From contig JAGGXI010000064.1 of NCBI GenBank assembly GCA_021163155.1, positions 1 to 35,809 on the forward strand: DNA of 35,809 nt, written 5' to 3'. The stretch is from Candidatus Aerophobota bacterium. GTDB taxonomy: Bacteria; Aerophobota; Aerophobia; Aerophobales; JAGGXI01. Shown one piece after another: positions 1,951 through 35,618 of the stretch; position 1 is the stretch's first letter, and each line of letters starts with the position of its first letter. The notes under the pieces are model-generated. The model was not told the origin of the DNA. It was given only the letters and a program-made list of their open reading frames with translations, and ran no database searches. Position numbers and translations under genes: made by a program.

Positions 1951-2352
1951 ATGATGCAAACAGCTTTTATCTTGATTAATGTCAGTGCAGGAAAAACATG
2001 GGAAGTAATAGAGAAATTGAAAAAAATGGAGGAAGTAGTGGAAGTTTATTCTATCGCTGGTGAATATGATATCATTGCAAAAATAATTTTTTTTAGCCTT
2101 AAAACATTAGGTGAAATTGTGCCCAAAAATATTCAAAATATACAGGGAATAGAAAGAACTAATACTCTACTTTCCTTTGAGGTTCATAAATATAAACGAT
2201 ATGAACCTTGCAAAAAAGCAAAAGAGCTTGAAGATAGTGGAGAAGAAATAAAGCTGTATGAGCTTTGTAAAAGATGTAAAGAGCTTGAAGACTGTATTTA
2301 TGGCCGGCAAGTAATTAAACGAGGGATTGAACCTGCACCTTCGTTTAAGTAG
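1951..2352 (+). CDS. stand-alone RAM (Lrp/AsnC effector-binding) domain protein with duplicated cysteine tail
   Basis: Residues 1-80 match the RAM ligand-binding domain of Lrp/AsnC regulators (AFILINVSAGK..., EVVEVYSIAGEYD, IQGIERTNTLLSFEV). There is no helix-turn-helix domain before it, so this is a stand-alone RAM protein. Such proteins bind amino acids or modulate full-length Lrp partners. The tail (81-133) carries two copies of a 12-residue motif, YEPCKKAKELED (84-95) and YELCKRCKELED (103-114), 19 residues apart. This gives cysteines 87, 106, 109 and 115, including a CxxC. The start has a strong site, GAGGAGGTGAAAA. The trpD gene begins 69 bp downstream on the same strand, so the two may share a transcript. 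A role in sensing tryptophan or its precursors is only an inference from position. Confidence 0.75.
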   Translation: MMQTAFILINVSAGKTWEVIEKLKKMEEVVEVYSIAGEYDIIAKIIFFSLKTLGEIVPKNIQNIQGIERTNTLLSFEVHKYKRYEPCKKAKELEDSGEEIKLYELCKRCKELEDCIYGRQVIKRGIEPAPSFK

Positions 2353-6443: not shown

Positions 6444-7233
6444 AATAGAGGATAAATTTAAGGAGCTTAAAAAAAAGGGGAGAAAAGGGTTTATTCCTTT
6501 TATTACCTGTGGAGACCCTGACCTTGTGACAAGTAAAAGTTTAGTTTTTGCTTTAGAAGAAGCAGGGGCTGATATTATTGAGTTAGGAATCCCTTTTTCT
6601 GACCCTATAGCTGATGGCCCTACTATTCAGGCATCTTCTAAAAGAGCATTAACTAATAGGGTAAGTTTAAGAAAAGTAATTCAGTTTGCAAAAGAGATAA
6701 GGAAAAAATCTCAAATACCTCTGGTTCTTTTAAGTTATTTCAATCCTATTTATAGGTTGGGAATAAAAAATTTTATAAAAGAATCCAAGGATATAGTAGA
6801 TGGGGTTATTATTCCCGACCTTCCCCCTGAAGAAGCAAAATTATTAGAAGGATTAGAAGAAGATAAGTTGCCTTTAATTTTTCTTCTCGCTCCTACCTCT
6901 ACCGAGGAAAGAATAAGGTTAGTGAGTCAATTTTCTCAAGGATTTATTTATGTAGTTTCTATCTCTGGGGTAACAGGAGCAAGGGAAGCAGTACCTTACA
7001 AAATAAAAAACCTTATTCTTCAAATTCGAAATCTTACTGATAAGCCTGTCTGCTTAGGATTTGGAATATCTACTCCTAATCAAGTGAAAGTAGTAAAAGA
7101 TTGGGTAGACGGAGTAATTGTAGGGAGTGCCCTCGTCAATATTATAGATAAATATGCGAAGGATAAAAAATTAATGATAAAAGAGGCAGGAAAATTTGTA
7201 AAAAATTTAAGGGAAGCCCTTTCCTCTCCATAA
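6436..7233 (+). CDS. trpA: tryptophan synthase alpha chain
   Basis: TrpA cleaves indole-3-glycerol phosphate to indole and glyceraldehyde 3-phosphate and channels the indole to TrpB. In the 265-residue TIM barrel the catalytic residues stand at their canonical positions: E49 in [11 protein letters not shown] and D60 in [18 protein letters not shown], the [11 protein letters not shown] phosphate loop and CLGFGIS are also present. It overlaps trpB by 8 nt and is the last recognisable gene of the trp set. A 191-bp gap with a repeat follows before the thiamine gene. Confidence 0.96.
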
Positions 7234-28970: not shown

Positions 28971-30929
28971 TTATGGCATTGCCCATGATGGCATTATTCC
29001 CGCATGAACACCAAAGGCTATACCTATAAGGAGATAGGAAAGCAATGTTACAATAAACATACCTGTTATCTCGAAGAATATCCCTGCTTTTATCATTTGT
29101 GGGAGTTTGATATATCCTGTACCAAATACAATAGCATTAGGTGGTGTTGCTACTGGAAGTAAAAAGGCGCAGGAACAAGCAATTGCTGCCGGAATCATTA
29201 ATAATCTTGGGTCTTGCCCAATCGCAAGTGCTACAGCGGCTAAAATAGGCATTAGTGTAGTAGTAGTTGCTGTGTTTGAGGTCATTTCAGAGAGCCAAAC
29301 TCCAAGAGTGACTGCAGAGAATATAATTAATAGTACAGGGATATTTTTTAATCCTACTAATTGATACCCTATCCATCTATCAAGTCCTGTTGAATGAACG
29401 CCGCTAGCAAGCGCAAGGCCACCACCAAATAGCAATAATATTCCCCAGGGAATCTTGGTAGCCCATTCCCAGTTCAGTATAAATTCTCCTCTTTTAAGAT
29501 TAATTGGCCAAAGGAACAATAATACTGAGGCAAAAATTGCAATGGTTGAATCGTCTATCCAGGGAAATATCATATTCAATCCAGGAATTGTAAATGTTCC
29601 GATTATTTTTGTACTTCTAAAAATCCAGCAGGTTGCTGCAATGATAAGCACAATAGCAACTCCCTTTTCTCCTTTATTCATCGGACCCATTTTTTTGATT
29701 TGCTGATCAATTAATTCCATTCCCCCAGGCACTTCTTTAATCTCTGGTGGATATATAAAATGAGTCATTCCAAACCAGATAAGGAAAACCATCGTCCATG
29801 CAATAGGCATTCCTATCATAAGCCAGGAGAAGAAGTCTACTGTAGGTGCATTTGGGAATAAAACTGGTAATGCTCCAGCAAATACTATATTTGGCGGTGT
29901 TCCAATCAGTGTTCCGATGCCTCCACAACTTGCAGCATACGCTATACAAAGCATCAGACATGTTCCGAATTTATAATTACCCTCTGAAAAATCGACTCCC
30001 GAAAGTTTTCCCTCATCGATCATCTTTTGACCAACTTTTGCACTATGTAAGATAATCGCTAATGCCATAGGCATCATCATAACAGTAGTGGCTGTATTAG
30101 ATATCCACATTGAAAGAAAAGCTGTAGCTATCATAAATCCCAATATTATTCTTTTAGGACTTACTCCAACAATTTTAGTAATTCTCATTGCAATTCTTTC
30201 ATGTAAGTTCCACCTTACCATAGCCTCTCCAATGAAAAAACCACCCATAAATAAAAAAATAACTTTATTAGCATAGGGACTGCAGGAATTAGCCGCATTC
30301 GCTATCCCCAACAATGGAAATAGAATAATAGGTAATAGAGATGTAGCTGCTAAAGGTATTGTTTCTCCAATCCACCAGCAAGCCATTAGGGCTGCCACTG
30401 CCAAACAGGCTTTCATTATGTTTACTTTCTTCGCTATTTCTGAATATATTTTAAGGTTTTCTGTTTTAATCCACTTGAGAAAGTTTTTAGTATCAGATAT
30501 TTCTTTTACTCTTTTATTTGAGTTTAATTTTAATACATTCAGGGAAGCCCCTGTTTGTAACAAATCTTCACTTGCAGATTTTAACACTATTTTTGAGCTC
30601 ATATTATACATACTCGTTGGAGGAGGAACTATCAGAATTATCGCAAACAATATAACACCCAGGATAAAGCCGAGTTTCTGCCTGAGGCTATAAGGTTCTT
30701 TCTCTTTTTCTGACGTTGAAACACTGGTTGGCTTTTTATCCTTTTCTTTTTCTGCATGTTTCCCGATTGTTTTATCCGAAAGAGGCTCTGCTTTATTTTT
30801 TTCTGATTGTTCTGAGGAATCTGGAGATTCTGCAAATGCTGCAAAATCAAGTTTTATAATTCTTTTCGTTTGTTTGTCTAAGGTCCATAAATAACGCCAA
30901 AAGCCTGTTAATGTGTTTGATATATTCAT
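28971..30929 (-). CDS. SLC13/DASS family sodium-coupled anion carrier with N-terminal extension
   Basis: The 652-residue membrane protein has the two sodium-site SNT motifs of divalent-anion:sodium symporters, ISNTATTVMMMP (277-282 core) and TSNTATTTTLMP (551-556 core). The repeat halves GTLIGTPPNIVF and PVATPPNAIVFGTG also fit. Substrates in this family are C4-dicarboxylates, citrate or sulfate; the sequence does not tell which. Two parts are extra. One is a soluble N-terminus of about 83 residues rich in S, E and K. The other is a roughly 70-residue loop between the first and second hydrophobic segments (about 105-170). The start has GAGGAG 9 nt upstream. The sequence seems less A-rich than its neighbours, which could mean transfer, but I did not compute this. 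Confidence 0.9.
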   Translation of the reverse strand: MNISNTLTGFWRYLWTLDKQTKRIIKLDFAAFAESPDSSEQSEKNKAEPLSDKTIGKHAEKEKDKKPTSVSTSEKEKEPYSLRQKLGFILGVILFAIILIVPPPTSMYNMSSKIVLKSASEDLLQTGASLNVLKLNSNKRVKEISDTKNFLKWIKTENLKIYSEIAKKVNIMKACLAVAALMACWWIGETIPLAATSLLPIILFPLLGIANAANSCSPYANKVIFLFMGGFFIGEAMVRWNLHERIAMRITKIVGVSPKRIILGFMIATAFLSMWISNTATTVMMMPMALAIILHSAKVGQKMIDEGKLSGVDFSEGNYKFGTCLMLCIAYAASCGGIGTLIGTPPNIVFAGALPVLFPNAPTVDFFSWLMIGMPIAWTMVFLIWFGMTHFIYPPEIKEVPGGMELIDQQIKKMGPMNKGEKGVAIVLIIAATCWIFRSTKIIGTFTIPGLNMIFPWIDDSTIAIFASVLLFLWPINLKRGEFILNWEWATKIPWGILLLFGGGLALASGVHSTGLDRWIGYQLVGLKNIPVLLIIFSAVTLGVWLSEMTSNTATTTTLMPILAAVALAIGQDPRLLMIPAAIACSCAFLLPVATPPNAIVFGTGYIKLPQMIKAGIFFEITGMFIVTLLSYLLIGIAFGVHAGIMPSWAMP

Positions 30930-31107: not shown

Positions 31108-32808
31108 TTAATATTTTACTATATTATCAAAAATAACAAAAATTATCAAGGATACTATTACTAAAAGAAGCGAATTATTTAAACCAAGTTCCATTTGACT
31201 AATTCTTAACGAAATTCGCTTTCCATATTTTGTGGTAATAAATTTGTAAAGAAAAATCCCTAAAATAAAAGTAAATAAGCTTTTTTCTATATTATAAGAG
31301 GAATAAATTTTGATAGAGTAGGATAAGTCTTTTAATAAGATAAAATTAGATATCCCTTTGATTATATAGAAGGGGAAAATGCCTGATAGAAGACAGATTA
31401 TAGAGAGAATAACAATAGGATAAACCATAGTTTTAGGAATTTTCTTTATTTTGTTAGAAAAGAGTTCAGCTTTTTCTCCTTCCTTAAAATTTCCGGAGTT
31501 ATCATTTTTAATTCTTTCTTTGCTTAAAAAAATCATCATCAACTTAGTAAAAGAGGCTACTGTCCCCACACTTGCCAAAAAGATAAAAATAAAAGGAAGG
31601 GGATGCTCCTTTAGAGATGCTGATATAAGAGTTTTGCTAACAAACCCATTAAAAGGAGGTATCCCGGAAATGGAAAGAGCTCCTATCAGGAATGATATAG
31701 CTACACAAGGCATCTTTTTAAACAGTCCTGAAAGTTTTCTTAAGTCTCTTATATCTGTAGCATAGATCACCGCTCCCATTGAGAAAAAGAGCAGGCTTTT
31801 GAAGAAAGAGTGATTAAGAAGATGATAAAGGGAGCCAGTAAGGGAAAGAGTTGAGCCGGCTCCAAAGGAGACGATGATAAATCCCATTTGAGATACACTA
31901 TGATAAGCTAAGAGTTTTTTAATGTCGGTCTGCGATAAAGCCCAAATTACGGGCATTAAGGCAGTAAGAGAGCCTATCCAGAGAAAAAGATACTGAAAGT
32001 TAATCGCTTCTACGATATTGATAATTCTCCAGATAGCCAAAAAGGAGATTTTAATAATTATCCCGGATAAAAGAGCGGAGATAGGGGTAGGAGCATAGGC
32101 ATGAGCATCAGGAAGCCAGAGATGAAGTGGAATAAAAGCTGCCTTAATCCCTATTCCTACTATTATTAAAGAGATGGTTAATTGAAACATAAATGGAGGA
32201 ATGCCTTTTCCTATGCTAAAGGTTTTGCCTATCTGGGTTAAACTTAAACTACCGCATCCTTGATAAATAAGTCCTATGCCCAGGAGGAAAAGAGACATTC
32301 CAAGACCGCTAATCAGTAAGTAATTAAAACTCGCTTTTATAGCTCTACTCTCCTGAGAATAAGCGATAAGTATATAAGAGGCAATAGATAGAATCTCGAA
32401 GAAGACAAACATATTAAATATATCATTGGTAAGAATAACTCCTTGCATTCCTGCCAGTAGAATAAGGAAGAAGAAGTAGAACTTGTATTGATAATTTTTC
32501 TCTTTTAGACTATAGATAAGGCTAAATAAAGCAATAATTATCCCTAAAAAGGAGGAAAACCAGGCTAATCCATCCATATATAAACATATGCCTAACGGTT
32601 CTTTCCATCCACCCAAATTATATATAAGAGTCTCTTTTTTAATTAAAATATCAATGATAGAGAGTCCGACTATGATTAAGCTAATGATTATTGAGGATAG
32701 ACTGATTAACTTGATTAATTTAAGGTTTACTTTTAAAAAATTAATTAAGAGAATTAAACAAGCAGCAAAAAGAGGGATGATTATTAAAAAGAGAGGAATG
32801 CTATTCAT
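31108..32808 (-). CDS. mrpD: Mrp/Mbh antiporter subunit D (MbhH-like, ND2/ND4/ND5 family)
   Basis: This large proton/sodium-channel subunit has 566 residues and about 14 membrane helices. It carries the ion-path glutamate E138 in FVFFEILSIAS and lysine K222 in GIKAAFIPLHLWLPDAHAYAPTPISALLSG. Other residues expected of antiporter-like subunits are SQTDIKKLLAYHSVSQMG and LLNHSFFKSLLFFSMGAV. By position it corresponds to MrpD of multisubunit antiporters and MbhH of membrane-bound hydrogenases. Its start overlaps mrpC by 8 nt. It is the last gene of the cluster. The usual next genes for a hydrogenase (mbhI to mbhN) are absent; a carrier gene follows instead. Confidence 0.92.
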   Translation of the reverse strand: MNSIPLFLIIIPLFAACLILLINFLKVNLKLIKLISLSSIIISLIIVGLSIIDILIKKETLIYNLGGWKEPLGICLYMDGLAWFSSFLGIIIALFSLIYSLKEKNYQYKFYFFFLILLAGMQGVILTNDIFNMFVFFEILSIASYILIAYSQESRAIKASFNYLLISGLGMSLFLLGIGLIYQGCGSLSLTQIGKTFSIGKGIPPFMFQLTISLIIVGIGIKAAFIPLHLWLPDAHAYAPTPISALLSGIIIKISFLAIWRIINIVEAINFQYLFLWIGSLTALMPVIWALSQTDIKKLLAYHSVSQMGFIIVSFGAGSTLSLTGSLYHLLNHSFFKSLLFFSMGAVIYATDIRDLRKLSGLFKKMPCVAISFLIGALSISGIPPFNGFVSKTLISASLKEHPLPFIFIFLASVGTVASFTKLMMIFLSKERIKNDNSGNFKEGEKAELFSNKIKKIPKTMVYPIVILSIICLLSGIFPFYIIKGISNFILLKDLSYSIKIYSSYNIEKSLFTFILGIFLYKFITTKYGKRISLRISQMELGLNNSLLLVIVSLIIFVIFDNIVKY

Positions 32809-33136
32809 CTTCAGCTAATTTCTCTATCTGGGAAATATTTAAGGTTTGATATTCTTTATACATTTTTAAAACCAAAGCTAAGGCTAAAGCCGTAAGGCAT
32901 ATTCCAATGACAATAGCCGTAAGCATAAGAGCCTGAGGTAAGGGGTCTACCACATTTTTTATTCCTTTTTCCATTATAGGAGCAGTAGAACCATAGCGAT
33001 GCCCTATCAGGATAAAAAATAGGACTACCGCACTATCAGCAATGTTTAACCCAATTATTTTTTTAATTAAATTTTCTTTACTTATTATTCCCCAGATACC
33101 TATGAGAAAAAGGAGAAAAGTTAAATAAAATTCCAT
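32801..33136 (-). CDS. mrpC: Mrp antiporter subunit C (NuoK-like, MbhG-like)
   Basis: The 111-residue protein has three membrane helices in NuoK fashion: YLTFLLFLIGIWGIISKENLIKKIIGLNIADSAVVLFFILIGH, then DPLPQALMLTAIVIGICLTALALALVL. The conserved DPLPQALMLTAIVIG segment is diagnostic of MrpC/MnhC. It forms part of the membrane ion path beside MrpD. It overlaps mrpD by 8 nt and lies 2 nt after mrpB, which indicates tight coupling. Confidence 0.94.
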   Translation of the reverse strand: MEFYLTFLLFLIGIWGIISKENLIKKIIGLNIADSAVVLFFILIGHRYGSTAPIMEKGIKNVVDPLPQALMLTAIVIGICLTALALALVLKMYKEYQTLNISQIEKLAEDE

Positions 33137-33138
33137 TT

Positions 33139-33570
33139 TTATTCCTCCTGCCTTTCACATAAGCTATAGAAAATTAAGATAATCCCTGCCCCTACTTTTA
33201 ATCCAATGACCAAATTGAGAAGGAAAATAAACCCAGCTGTAGGGATTTCTCCTGCTTTTTTTAAAGGGAAAATATTTCCTAAGAAGCTCTTTCCTGCTAT
33301 AAGGCCGATTATTCCTAGAAGGATAAAAATAGTAATCATAAATGCTTCTAAAAAAGTTATTTTTGGGGAAGAAAATTTTTTCTCAGTTAAAAAAATTCCG
33401 CGAGAAAGAGAAAGAAGGATTATCCCTGATCCCAGGACTACTCCTCCCTGAAATCCTCCTCCTGGAGAAAGATGTCCATAGGAGATAAGATAAAGTCCAA
33501 AGAGAAGAATATAAGGTACTAATTTTCTTGAGGTAATGCTTACTATTTCTGATCTATCTTCTTTTTTCAA
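33139..33570 (-). CDS. mrpB: Mrp antiporter subunit B (MnhB/MbhF-like)
   Basis: The 143-residue protein has four membrane helices and the MnhB signature YGHLSPGGGFQGGVVLGSGIIL near residues 28-49. It begins VSITSRKLVPYILLFGLYLI, also typical. It contributes to the antiporter membrane arm. It lies 89 bp downstream of the MbhE-like gene, with a low-complexity tract between them, and 2 nt before mrpC. Confidence 0.94.
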   Translation of the reverse strand: MKKEDRSEIVSITSRKLVPYILLFGLYLISYGHLSPGGGFQGGVVLGSGIILLSLSRGIFLTEKKFSSPKITFLEAFMITIFILLGIIGLIAGKSFLGNIFPLKKAGEIPTAGFIFLLNLVIGLKVGAGIILIFYSLCERQEE

Positions 33571-33591
33571 TTTATTTTTTTCTCCTTTTTT

Positions 33592-33652
33592 TTCCTCATC
33601 TACTCATTCACTCTTCTCCCCATTCACCCATCTACCCATTCACTCATCTAAA
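33592..33652. repeat. CCCATTCACCCATCTACC low-complexity tract
   Basis: Degenerate tandem words (CTCATC, TACTCATTCACTC, CCCATTCACCCATCTACCC) fill most of the gap between mrpB and the MbhE-like gene. A related tract lies at 1840-1883. On the coding strand of this operon the tract is G-rich (GGGTAGATGGGTGAATGGG). It interrupts an otherwise tightly packed operon. Confidence 0.55.
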
Positions 33653-33659
33653 CCCCGAA

Positions 33660-33932
33660 CTAATACTTTCTTGCATGATTGAGCAGAAAAACTATTGAAG
33701 AGACGGTCACCAGGAGGACGATAGTCTCTCCTAAAGTGTCAAAAGCTCTGTAGCCAAGATAAATGCTGGATACTATATTAATAGCCCCTGTTTCCCCCTT
33801 TCCTTCAGCGACATAATGGTTGCTCACTGTTAATTTTAAAGGAAGATTAGGATTAAATCCATAGAAAAAGATTATTCCTAATACTATAAGGATAGATAAA
33901 ATGAGTATATTTTTTATCCCCTCTTTGTTCAT
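33660..33932 (-). CDS. MbhE-like subunit (C-terminal MrpA segment)
   Basis: The 90-residue protein has a first hydrophobic segment (ILILSILIVLGIIFFYG), a loop, and then AFDTLGETIVLLVTVSSIVFLL. The FDTLGETIVLL motif belongs to the C-terminal domain of MrpA and to MbhE of membrane-bound hydrogenases. MrpA proper is about 800 residues, and here its pieces are separate genes. The VAEGKGETGAINIVSSIYLGYRAFD portion is also typical. It stands between the MbhD-like gene and mrpB, in the usual order. Confidence 0.88.
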   Translation of the reverse strand: MNKEGIKNILILSILIVLGIIFFYGFNPNLPLKLTVSNHYVAEGKGETGAINIVSSIYLGYRAFDTLGETIVLLVTVSSIVFLLNHARKY

Positions 33933-33956
33933 TTCCTGGACCTCTCACCTCTTACG

Positions 33957-34181
33957 TTAATATCTTTTTGTTTTACTAATTACCACTACAAATAGAGTAG
34001 TGGTAACCCCTGCTCCTACCGCAGCTTCAGCAATAGCTACATCAGGCGCATGGAGAAGATAAAAGATAAGAGAAAGAAGAAGACTAAAAGCAGCTAAAGC
34101 GATAACGGCGTTTAAAAGATCCTTAAACTGAAGAGCAAAAATCGCCGTTATTATAATAACTATTAAAATAGAAATAATCAT
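33957..34181 (-). CDS. MbhD-like subunit (DUF4040; MrpA segment)
   Basis: This 74-residue membrane protein has two or three helices. The motif YLLHAPDVAIAEAAVGAGVTTTLFVVVI is diagnostic of the DUF4040/MbhD domain found also inside MrpA. It begins at the last base of the mrpG stop (TAATG overlap), so translation is coupled. Together with the MbhE-like gene it replaces the C-terminal part of MrpA. Confidence 0.9.
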   Translation of the reverse strand: MIISILIVIIITAIFALQFKDLLNAVIALAAFSLLLSLIFYLLHAPDVAIAEAAVGAGVTTTLFVVVISKTKRY

Positions 34182-34495
34182 TATTCGCCTTTCTCTTTCT
34201 CTTTCTCTTTTCTCCAGGGTAAAATCCCTTCTTCATAAGCACTTCTACCTATAGCATGGGAAGAGACAGGACTGGTGATAAAGAAAAACATAGTTATTAC
34301 TAAAATTCTTACAGTAACAAAACTCAATCCTTCCAAAATCATAAGTCCTATAAATATAGAGATTATCGAAGTAATTCCACACTTAGATGAGGCCTGCAAA
34401 CGGGTGTATACATCAGGGAAGCGCAAGATTCCTATATTACCAAAAGTAGCAAAAAATACTCCCATTCCTATAAAGAGATAAGCAATAAGTCTCAT
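34181..34495 (-). CDS. mrpG: Mrp antiporter subunit G (MnhG/MbhC-like)
   Basis: The 104-residue protein has three helices and the MnhG pattern FATFGNIGILRFPDVYTRLQASSKCGITSIISIFIGL and the C-terminal SSHAIGRSAYEEGILPW. The small charged tail EKEKEKGE ends the protein. It overlaps mrpF by 4 nt and the MbhD-like gene by 1 nt. Confidence 0.94.
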   Translation of the reverse strand: MRLIAYLFIGMGVFFATFGNIGILRFPDVYTRLQASSKCGITSIISIFIGLMILEGLSFVTVRILVITMFFFITSPVSSHAIGRSAYEEGILPWRKEKEKEKGE

Positions 34496-34761
34496 TCGTG
34501 TAGTTTCTTTCCTTTAAGATATTTAGTAATAGCAATGATACTAATATAACCAAGAATGGCATAAACTAAGGCTACATCCAGATAAATAGCACGGTGGAAA
34601 TTTACTGCTGCAATTACCATAATAGCGGTTACTTGAGATAAAATAAGATTCAATCCTATCAAACGATCTTGATGAGTTGGTCCTATTATTATTCTATACA
34701 CGCTTACCAGAGAATTTATCAAAAGAAGAAAAATAACTATGGTTAATATATTTATATCCAT
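34492..34761 (-). CDS. mrpF: Mrp antiporter subunit F (MnhF/MbhB-like)
   Basis: The 89-residue protein has three membrane helices and the conserved YRIIIGPTHQDRLIGLNLILSQV and YLDVALVYAILGYISIIAITKYLKGK. This is MrpF. It overlaps mrpE by 10 nt at the start and mrpG by 4 nt at the end. Confidence 0.94.
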   Translation of the reverse strand: MDINILTIVIFLLLINSLVSVYRIIIGPTHQDRLIGLNLILSQVTAIMVIAAVNFHRAIYLDVALVYAILGYISIIAITKYLKGKKLHE

Positions 34762-35264
34762 ATTTTCTTTAACCAGGTCTCAAAATGTCCTTTTATTAAT
34801 TTTGCTGCATAATGACTATGAATAGTTTTAGCATTTAGCCAGTGAACTATAAGGTAGTCTTCATATAAATCTAAAGTGAGGGTACCGGGAGTGAGAGTAA
34901 TAGAATTGGCCAAAAGGGCTCGAGCTATCTCAGATTTTAATCTCGTTCGAAAGTGAACTATTCGAGGATTAATTTCCATAGTTAATATTGCGGGTATCAT
35001 TTTGAAACTGGATAAATATATCTTGAATATTAAAACAAAAGGATATATTAAGAGTGGAGATATTCTGGGAATGAGAGCCCGACGGGCAACTTCTCTTTTT
35101 TCAATGAAGATATCGTAAGTAAAAAGGGCAAGGGTAAAGGAAAATAGAAATCCAAGGAGTAAAGAAAAGGGTGCTATATTACAGGTAAATGCCAGCCAAC
35201 CTATCATTAAGTAAACAGTGGTAAGCAAAATCCTAACTATTTTCCATTTTTGATGAATATCCAT
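34752..35264 (-). CDS. mrpE: Mrp antiporter subunit E (MnhE/MbhA-like)
   Basis: The 170-residue protein has two or three N-terminal helices followed by a soluble domain. The motif LLANSITLTPGTLTLDLYEDYLIVHWL is diagnostic of MnhE. It is the first antiporter subunit in transcription order, matching mbhA of hydrogenase clusters. The P-II-like gene lies 27 bp upstream on the same strand. The start has AAGGGA about 10 bases upstream. Confidence 0.93.
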   Translation of the reverse strand: MDIHQKWKIVRILLTTVYLMIGWLAFTCNIAPFSLLLGFLFSFTLALFTYDIFIEKREVARRALIPRISPLLIYPFVLIFKIYLSSFKMIPAILTMEINPRIVHFRTRLKSEIARALLANSITLTPGTLTLDLYEDYLIVHWLNAKTIHSHYAAKLIKGHFETWLKKIWI

Positions 35265-35291: not shown

Positions 35292-35618
35292 TTAAAGGTT
35301 TTTTGTAAAATCCTTTACATAATCTATGGGAACAGTAAACAAGATTCCTATGCCTGGTTCTGATAAATCTTCAATGAGTTTTTCTACTTTTTTAATCTTT
35401 TTCTCATCGTCTACCACTGAAAAAATAGTCTTGTTGTAAGGTTTCTCTCCCTTCATAAAATCTTTAAGGTCAGCAAAAAGAGGAACTTCATAAGTAAGAA
35501 ATCCAATCATTCCTTCGCTGTCAAGAATAGTTGCTTTGGTGATATCTGCTTCTATAAAAGCATCTAAAATATCTTCTAAAAATTCTTCTTTATTAAGAAC
35601 AACCACTAATAATTTCAT
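35292..35618 (-). CDS. P-II-like small regulatory protein heading the antiporter cluster
   Basis: The 108-residue protein begins KLLVVVLNKEEFLEDILDAFIEADITKATILDSEGM. This is the beta-alpha-beta start of P-II-like (ferredoxin-fold, trimeric) proteins, and the end IGILFTVPIDYVKDF closes the fold. A middle part (GFLTYEVPLFADLKDFMKGEKPYNKTIF) replaces the usual uridylylated T-loop; no tyrosine in a classical context is seen. P-II-like proteins often bind nucleotides and regulate a neighbouring transporter. Being 27 bp upstream of mrpE and co-directional, it may regulate this antiporter. The function is inferred only from fold resemblance and position. Confidence 0.65.
   Translation of the reverse strand: MKLLVVVLNKEEFLEDILDAFIEADITKATILDSEGMIGFLTYEVPLFADLKDFMKGEKPYNKTIFSVVDDEKKIKKVEKLIEDLSEPGIGILFTVPIDYVKDFTKNL

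Follow-up and report, generated by a model that had tools for sequence, protein, structure and literature searches.

Gene content of the locus

The DNA analysed here (hereafter the window) is a stretch of 35,809 nucleotides that spans contig C74 from end to end, in a genome of 1.83 Mb. Close to its end, on the minus strand, lies an open reading frame for a 108-residue protein with an ATG start, whose stop codon is placed 27 bp ahead of the mrpE ATG at 35264, as the initial annotation had described. Eight antiporter genes, identified by their Pfam matches, follow on the same strand in the order mrpE, mrpF, mrpG, mbhD, mbhE, mnhB, mrpC and mrpD. The features of the locus are:

35292..35618, minus strand: 108-aa P-II-like protein, heading the antiporter cluster (ORF, ortholog Pfam match, fold match, dN/dS)
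35466..35483, minus strand: codons P46-L-F48-A-D-L51, the family's T-loop-position motif (per-position conservation compared with canonical GlnB)
35346..35357, minus strand: codons P88-G-I-G91, B-loop G-x-G retained (alignment with five canonical GlnB)
34752..35264, minus strand: mrpE (PF01899), MbhA position (Pfam 6e-31)
34492..34761, minus strand: mrpF (PF04066), MbhB position (Pfam 1e-15)
34181..34495, minus strand: mrpG (PF03334), MbhC position (Pfam 3.7e-25)
33957..34181, minus strand: mbhD (PF13244) (Pfam 5.2e-22)
33660..33932, minus strand: mbhE (PF20501) (Pfam 4e-8)
33139..33570, minus strand: mnhB/mrpB (PF04039), MbhF position (Pfam 1.6e-25)
32801..33136, minus strand: mrpC (PF00420), MbhG position (Pfam 2.8e-26)
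31108..32808, minus strand: mrpD-type antiporter subunit (PF00361), MbhH position (Pfam 1.8e-66)

The gene order E-F-G-MbhD-MbhE-B-C-D is presumably that of the MbhA-H antiporter arm, and the mrpD-type protein is the sole large antiporter subunit of the cluster. Compared with other Mrp/Mbh modules, this one is stand-alone, since it contains neither hydrogenase or complex-I subunits nor the MrpA N-terminal subunit, and it is headed by a P-II-like gene (P-II and EIIA genes head the clusters of relatives). A DASS-type Na+ symporter (28971-30929) comes after the antiporter arm (31108-35264). Elsewhere in the window (1951-2352, plus strand) a stand-alone Lrp/AsnC ligand-binding domain protein (PF01037), with a cysteine-rich tail and without the DNA-binding part, is encoded directly upstream of trp genes.

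A second Mrp-type cluster is present in the same genome (L153, C79 3552-14227), where two MrpD-type subunits are followed by NuoH/B/C/D-like genes. This cluster, which resembles an Mbh/Mbs-like respiratory complex, also includes an NfnB-like Fe-S flavoprotein. No P-II gene was found at it, which indicates that the P-II-like gene goes with the stand-alone antiporter module and not with the one containing complex-I-like subunits.

Comparison of the P-II-like gene with its nearest relative (L007) gave a dN of 0.080 and a dS of 0.765 (dN/dS about 0.10), and the frame and position of the gene are maintained in relatives at 60-84% identity. The low dN relative to dS shows, for this pair of sequences, that the open reading frame is a real, constrained gene under purifying selection. 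Only 191 bp are visible upstream of it, because the window is the whole contig. In several relatives (L004, L006, L036) a divergent gene, often valS, is located upstream, in keeping with the earlier proposal that the P-II-like gene is the first one of the cluster. Scanning for promoters and terminators yielded sites no commoner than in shuffled sequences. From the arrangement of the genes we infer that the P-II-like gene is co-transcribed with the antiporter genes.

Relationship of the protein to the P-II superfamily

The window protein scored 17.5 bits against the P-II family (PF00543), below the cut-off of 25, and its ortholog at L004 matched the same family over the full length with 31 bits, above that cut-off. 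Orthologs exceeding it were found in five genomes of the order, and 38 of 86 family members matched P-II at E<1e-3; the sole other family matched by the 86 members was EIIA, in fusions. Profile-profile comparison with canonical GlnB (five proteins from related genomes) gave an E-value of 4e-6. The AF2 model, built from eight sequences (mean pLDDT 73, pTM 0.65), shows the order E-H-E-(HH)-E-H-E, with low confidence in the T-loop region (pLDDT 52-53), and agrees with the beta-alpha-beta-beta-alpha-beta layout of the ferredoxin-like P-II fold. When this model was compared with the PDB using Foldseek, all of the top 50 matches listed were P-II, GlnK or SbtB proteins, with TM values of 0.5-0.6 and E-values from 1.8e-4 to 1e-3. 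Sequence search of the solved structures retrieved no close relative, the best match being a P-II protein at E 0.008, and no NCBIfam family was assigned to the window protein. A match to the CBS domain (PF00571, E 0.029) was rejected as due to chance, since it was partial and below the cut-off, in a protein of P-II fold.

Taken together, the L004 score, the matches of 38/86 members, the Foldseek result and the GlnB profile match lead us to accept the window protein as a predicted member of the P-II superfamily, and both the ferredoxin fold and the P-II kinship claimed by the initial annotation are borne out by structure prediction. Its sequence does not allow it to be accepted as a canonical GlnB/GlnK. 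In a tree of 114 columns, in which many forks are unresolved, the family forms a separate branch far from GlnB. The window protein groups with L007 (support 98), and all Mrp-linked and most fused EIIA-P-II members, the window protein included, fall in a branch of 20 rows with support 98; monophyly of the Mrp-linked rows alone was not resolved.

The T-loop position is occupied by a motif, P-x-F-A-x-L, whose residues are conserved in the family at 90% (P46), 92% (F48), 72% (A) and 57% (L). P46 and F48 are nearly invariant and are the sole positions above 90% in alignment A3. The window protein carries P46, F48, A49 and L51. According to the model and the alignment, it has a long insert in the T position and a short B-loop, and it contains neither cysteine nor histidine. 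Alignment with the five canonical GlnB proteins placed I92 at the equivalent of K90, and D103 or a gap at the positions of the C-loop arginines R101/R103 (R-x-R). These three residues are likewise missing from the family consensus. The G-M-G-R sequence at the T-loop base has become G-M-I-G in the lineage of the window. The B-loop G-x-G is retained, as is the T-loop-base lysine K63, which is present in 68% of the family. It had been suggested earlier that the protein senses nucleotides and thereby the energy state; this suggestion is conjectural, as K90 and R-x-R are absent while K63 and G-x-G are kept. By analogy with other P-II-like groups, nucleotide binding may persist in an altered form.

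Linkage to mrpE and the EIIA-2 partner

Conservation of the gene pair was assessed in 17 genomes of the order, orthologous MrpE being defined by an identity of 65% or more. In the eight genomes having that mrpE, the P-II-like gene always precedes it. None of the nine others has a Mrp-linked P-II-like copy; four of these contain a divergent MrpE alone (32-37%) and five have no MrpE. Outside the order, three genomes (G253, G402, G414) showed the genes P-II, EIIA, mrpE, F, G, mbhD, E and mnhB in this same order, with mrpC and D also present where the contig continues. Hence, orthologous mrpE is linked to a P-II-like gene in 11/11 loci, and the linkage on which the initial annotation depended is confirmed.

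A gene for an EIIA-2 protein (PF00359) lies between the P-II-like gene and mrpE in 8 of the 11 Mrp-linked loci (G003, G005, G008, G015, G016, G253, G402 and G414), and the loci without it are those of the window's genome, G006 and G010. The ends of the EIIA-2, P-II and mrpE genes often touch or overlap, and in L005, L006, L036 and L038 the EIIA genes overlap a long mrpE frame. The P-H histidine motif was retained in 52 of 56 EIIA copies. Beside a CPA-linked paralog of the window's genome a decayed EIIA-2 was detected (G000:C36:24941-25219; locus L154 about 6891-7230, also L032), in which the active histidine of I-P-H is replaced by tyrosine (I-P-Y) and the reading frame is shifted for the N-terminal part, although this may be an assembly error. 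The same genome encodes EI, HPr and an ordinary ptsN EIIA, the latter beside a hpf-like gene. Since the local EIIA is absent at the window and decayed on C36, the P-II-like protein seems to have persisted in this genome after the loss of the EIIA partners encoded next to it.

Neighbourhoods of the wider family

Profile searches located the family in 71 of 386 genomes. Within 3 kb on the same strand, a CPA antiporter gene (PF00999) was found at 55/86 loci and Mrp genes at 8/86. EIIA occurs at 54/86 loci and is fused to the P-II domain in 13 of these; the fused gene adjoins a CPA gene in 11 of the 13. When both strands were read out to 1.45 kb, CPA, Mrp or EIIA genes turned up at 74 of 88 loci of the family and at 0 of 23 loci of canonical P-II genes (Fisher p 1.7e-14, a statistic that ignores shared ancestry). 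Five antiporter loci (three CPA, two Mrp-type) were found in the window's own genome. All three of its family members adjoin antiporters, the paralogs on C36 and C81 flanking two of its three PF00999 genes. The family is paired mainly with CPA antiporters, which consist of a single subunit, and with EIIA-2 proteins of the PTS. At about 13/88 loci the neighbours are others (phosphoglycerate mutase, MlaE, HD hydrolase, acyl-CoA ligase), and ion transport is therefore not the exclusive context of the family.

Several single loci show further combinations. Two of them (L041 5819-8925 and L088 4916-7900) contain EIIA-2, P-II-like, a small ORF and a ClC chloride channel/antiporter with CBS domains in one gene run. 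Directly downstream of the P-II-like gene, V-type ATPase G-like and I subunits are encoded at L008 9001-11965, and F-type ATP synthase atpI and atpB at L083 67-2019. Two MrpD-type subunits, a CPA-like protein, EIIA-2, P-II-like and NqrB/RnfD-type genes are clustered at L047 1663-9618, the NqrB/RnfD-type gene coming last, and L089 (7281-10247) carries a back-to-back pair of P-II-like family genes, each with its own CPA antiporter. In the plasmid collection, a single match was obtained, from Acetoanaerobium noterae, behind a DcuC-type carrier.

Comparison with known P-II systems

Known cases of P-II proteins acting on transporters concern the uptake of ammonium and bicarbonate. With GlnB/GlnK and its partner AmtB the window system has in common the fold, a detectable sequence kinship and a gene for a small protein beside that of its known (AmtB) or presumed target transporter. 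It differs in the lack of K90 and the C-loop R-x-R, in the P-x-F-A-x-L motif that replaces the T-loop without the Y51 context, and in its neighbours, which are mrp genes and not amtB or glnA. Canonical GlnB coexists as a separate gene in four genomes of the order (G003, G005, G006, G015). PtsN, the EIIA-Ntr protein, acts on K+ transport systems. Its EIIA-2 relatives (PF00359) are recurrent partners of the family, separate or fused to the P-II domain, and are here paired with that domain at antiporter loci.

SbtB is a P-II-like protein encoded with, and acting on, the Na+-coupled transporter SbtA (PMC13249358). It is among the fold matches of the window protein (6mmo), whose neighbour is mrpE, of an antiporter complex, instead of sbtA; the C-terminal CGPxGC redox loop of SbtB is absent from the cysteine-free window protein. 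The nearest published precedent for the idea is PII-NG, likewise a P-II-type gene in a cluster with an antiporter that couples cations to protons. Located beside CzcABC proton/metal antiporters, it was suggested to sense metals inside the cell and was described for proteobacteria, with no mention of a link to EIIA (PMC7726332). By its neighbours, the window gene differs from PII-NG, whose partner is an RND metal efflux system (czc) and not mrp. The PII-NG group was reportedly described by Sant'Anna in 2009. SbtB-SbtA and PII-NG-CzcABC are the nearest precedents, and neither involves Mrp/CPA antiporters or EIIA. The window protein displays both marks of the antiporter-linked family, namely P-x-F-A-x-L in the T-loop position and an antiporter/EIIA neighbour. 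No description of a P-II gene pairing with Mrp/CPA antiporters or EIIA was found in the open-access literature, which is weak evidence; a P-II family beside ion antiporters and a PTS protein is apparently undescribed.

Possible role of the P-II-like protein

The gene linkage, the predicted fold and the analogy with other P-II systems make it likely that the protein is a dedicated allosteric P-II-type regulator of the stand-alone Mrp/Mbh-type cation/proton antiporter. This was also the proposal of the initial annotation. The linkage makes it the best reading for the window, but the association of the family is broader than Mrp. The P-II-like protein would presumably be a homotrimer made together with the downstream antiporter. 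The trimer would most likely dock on the cytoplasmic face of the antiporter through the T-loop region (P-x-F-A-x-L), as in GlnK-AmtB and SbtB-SbtA, and would raise or lower antiporter activity depending on a small ligand that occupies the interface between subunits. The trimer, the binding to Mrp, the docking site, the ligand and the sign of control are all extrapolated from these analogies. The PtsN-like EIIA, with its phosphorylatable histidine, could supply a second input, the PEP-driven phosphorylation state of the PTS. Because EIIA is encoded with or fused to P-II in most relatives, the ancestral device probably combined both signals; in the species of the window, where the EIIA neighbour is absent, the P-II-like protein would act alone or with the separate ptsN EIIA.

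The protein might instead control expression or assembly, by targeting a factor of transcription or translation or by serving as a chaperone of the Mrp complex, with or without EIIA. In other systems, PtsN and P-II proteins have kinases and transcription factors among their targets, gene adjacency does not tell such targets apart, and the P-II-like protein would be the sole candidate, since the clusters share no other conserved regulator gene. However, family members are paired with membrane transporters whose folds are unrelated (CPA, Mrp, ClC, NqrB/RnfD-type, DcuC), and the loci showed no gene for a DNA-binding protein as a regular companion. This indicates that the transporter is the common target, and we regard a role in expression or assembly as unlikely.

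A sensor of cations or metals (CutA-like or PII-NG-like) responding to the transported ion and not to nucleotides would agree with the loss of most canonical nucleotide residues and with the metal sensing proposed for PII-NG next to CzcABC (PMC7726332). No conserved Cys/His cluster exists in the family, however, and the window protein lacks both residues. To our knowledge, monovalent-ion sensing by P-II folds has no precedent either, and this explanation appears quite improbable.

Many bacteria use c-di-AMP to control the transport of K+ and Na+, and a DAC-domain synthase is present in the window's own genome (C18). The protein could accordingly be a c-di-AMP sensor like PstA/DarA that relays the signal to the antiporters. 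Nevertheless, the synthase occurs in 37 of 40 genomes with the family versus 36 of 40 without it, a distribution that is uninformative, and it was not found in three genomes having the family, so c-di-AMP is probably not required. Moreover, PstA/DarA proteins combine a short T-loop with a long loop at the B position (PMC6516651), the opposite of the window protein, with its long loop at the T position. Sensing of c-di-AMP is hence considered very improbable.

That the gene is a mere passenger, a P-II fold protein of unrelated function placed in the cluster by chance, is hardly credible: the antiporter link is drawn from gene positions and a minority of family members are located elsewhere, but the 11/11 linkage to orthologous mrpE extends to genomes outside the order, and 3/3 own-genome members stand beside antiporters as against 0/23 control loci.

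Implications

P-II-like transporter regulators are of a known kind; what the present data suggest as new is their occurrence at Mrp/CPA antiporters together with EIIA. More tentatively, and as a possibility that we rate somewhat short of even, there may be a widespread two-input module in which a P-II-like protein that senses a ligand and a PtsN-like EIIA that senses phosphorylation, separate or fused, jointly set the activity of proton/sodium-gradient machines. If so, it would act on CPA and Mrp antiporters and, at individual loci, on ClC, Rnf/Nqr-type proteins and ATP synthase, and ion flux would track PEP supply together with a metabolite or nucleotide signal. An antiporter-dedicated, PTS-tied P-II-like family would be a general route coupling ion and pH homeostasis to the metabolic state, and the Mrp complexes, whose regulation is poorly understood, would gain a concrete, testable controller.
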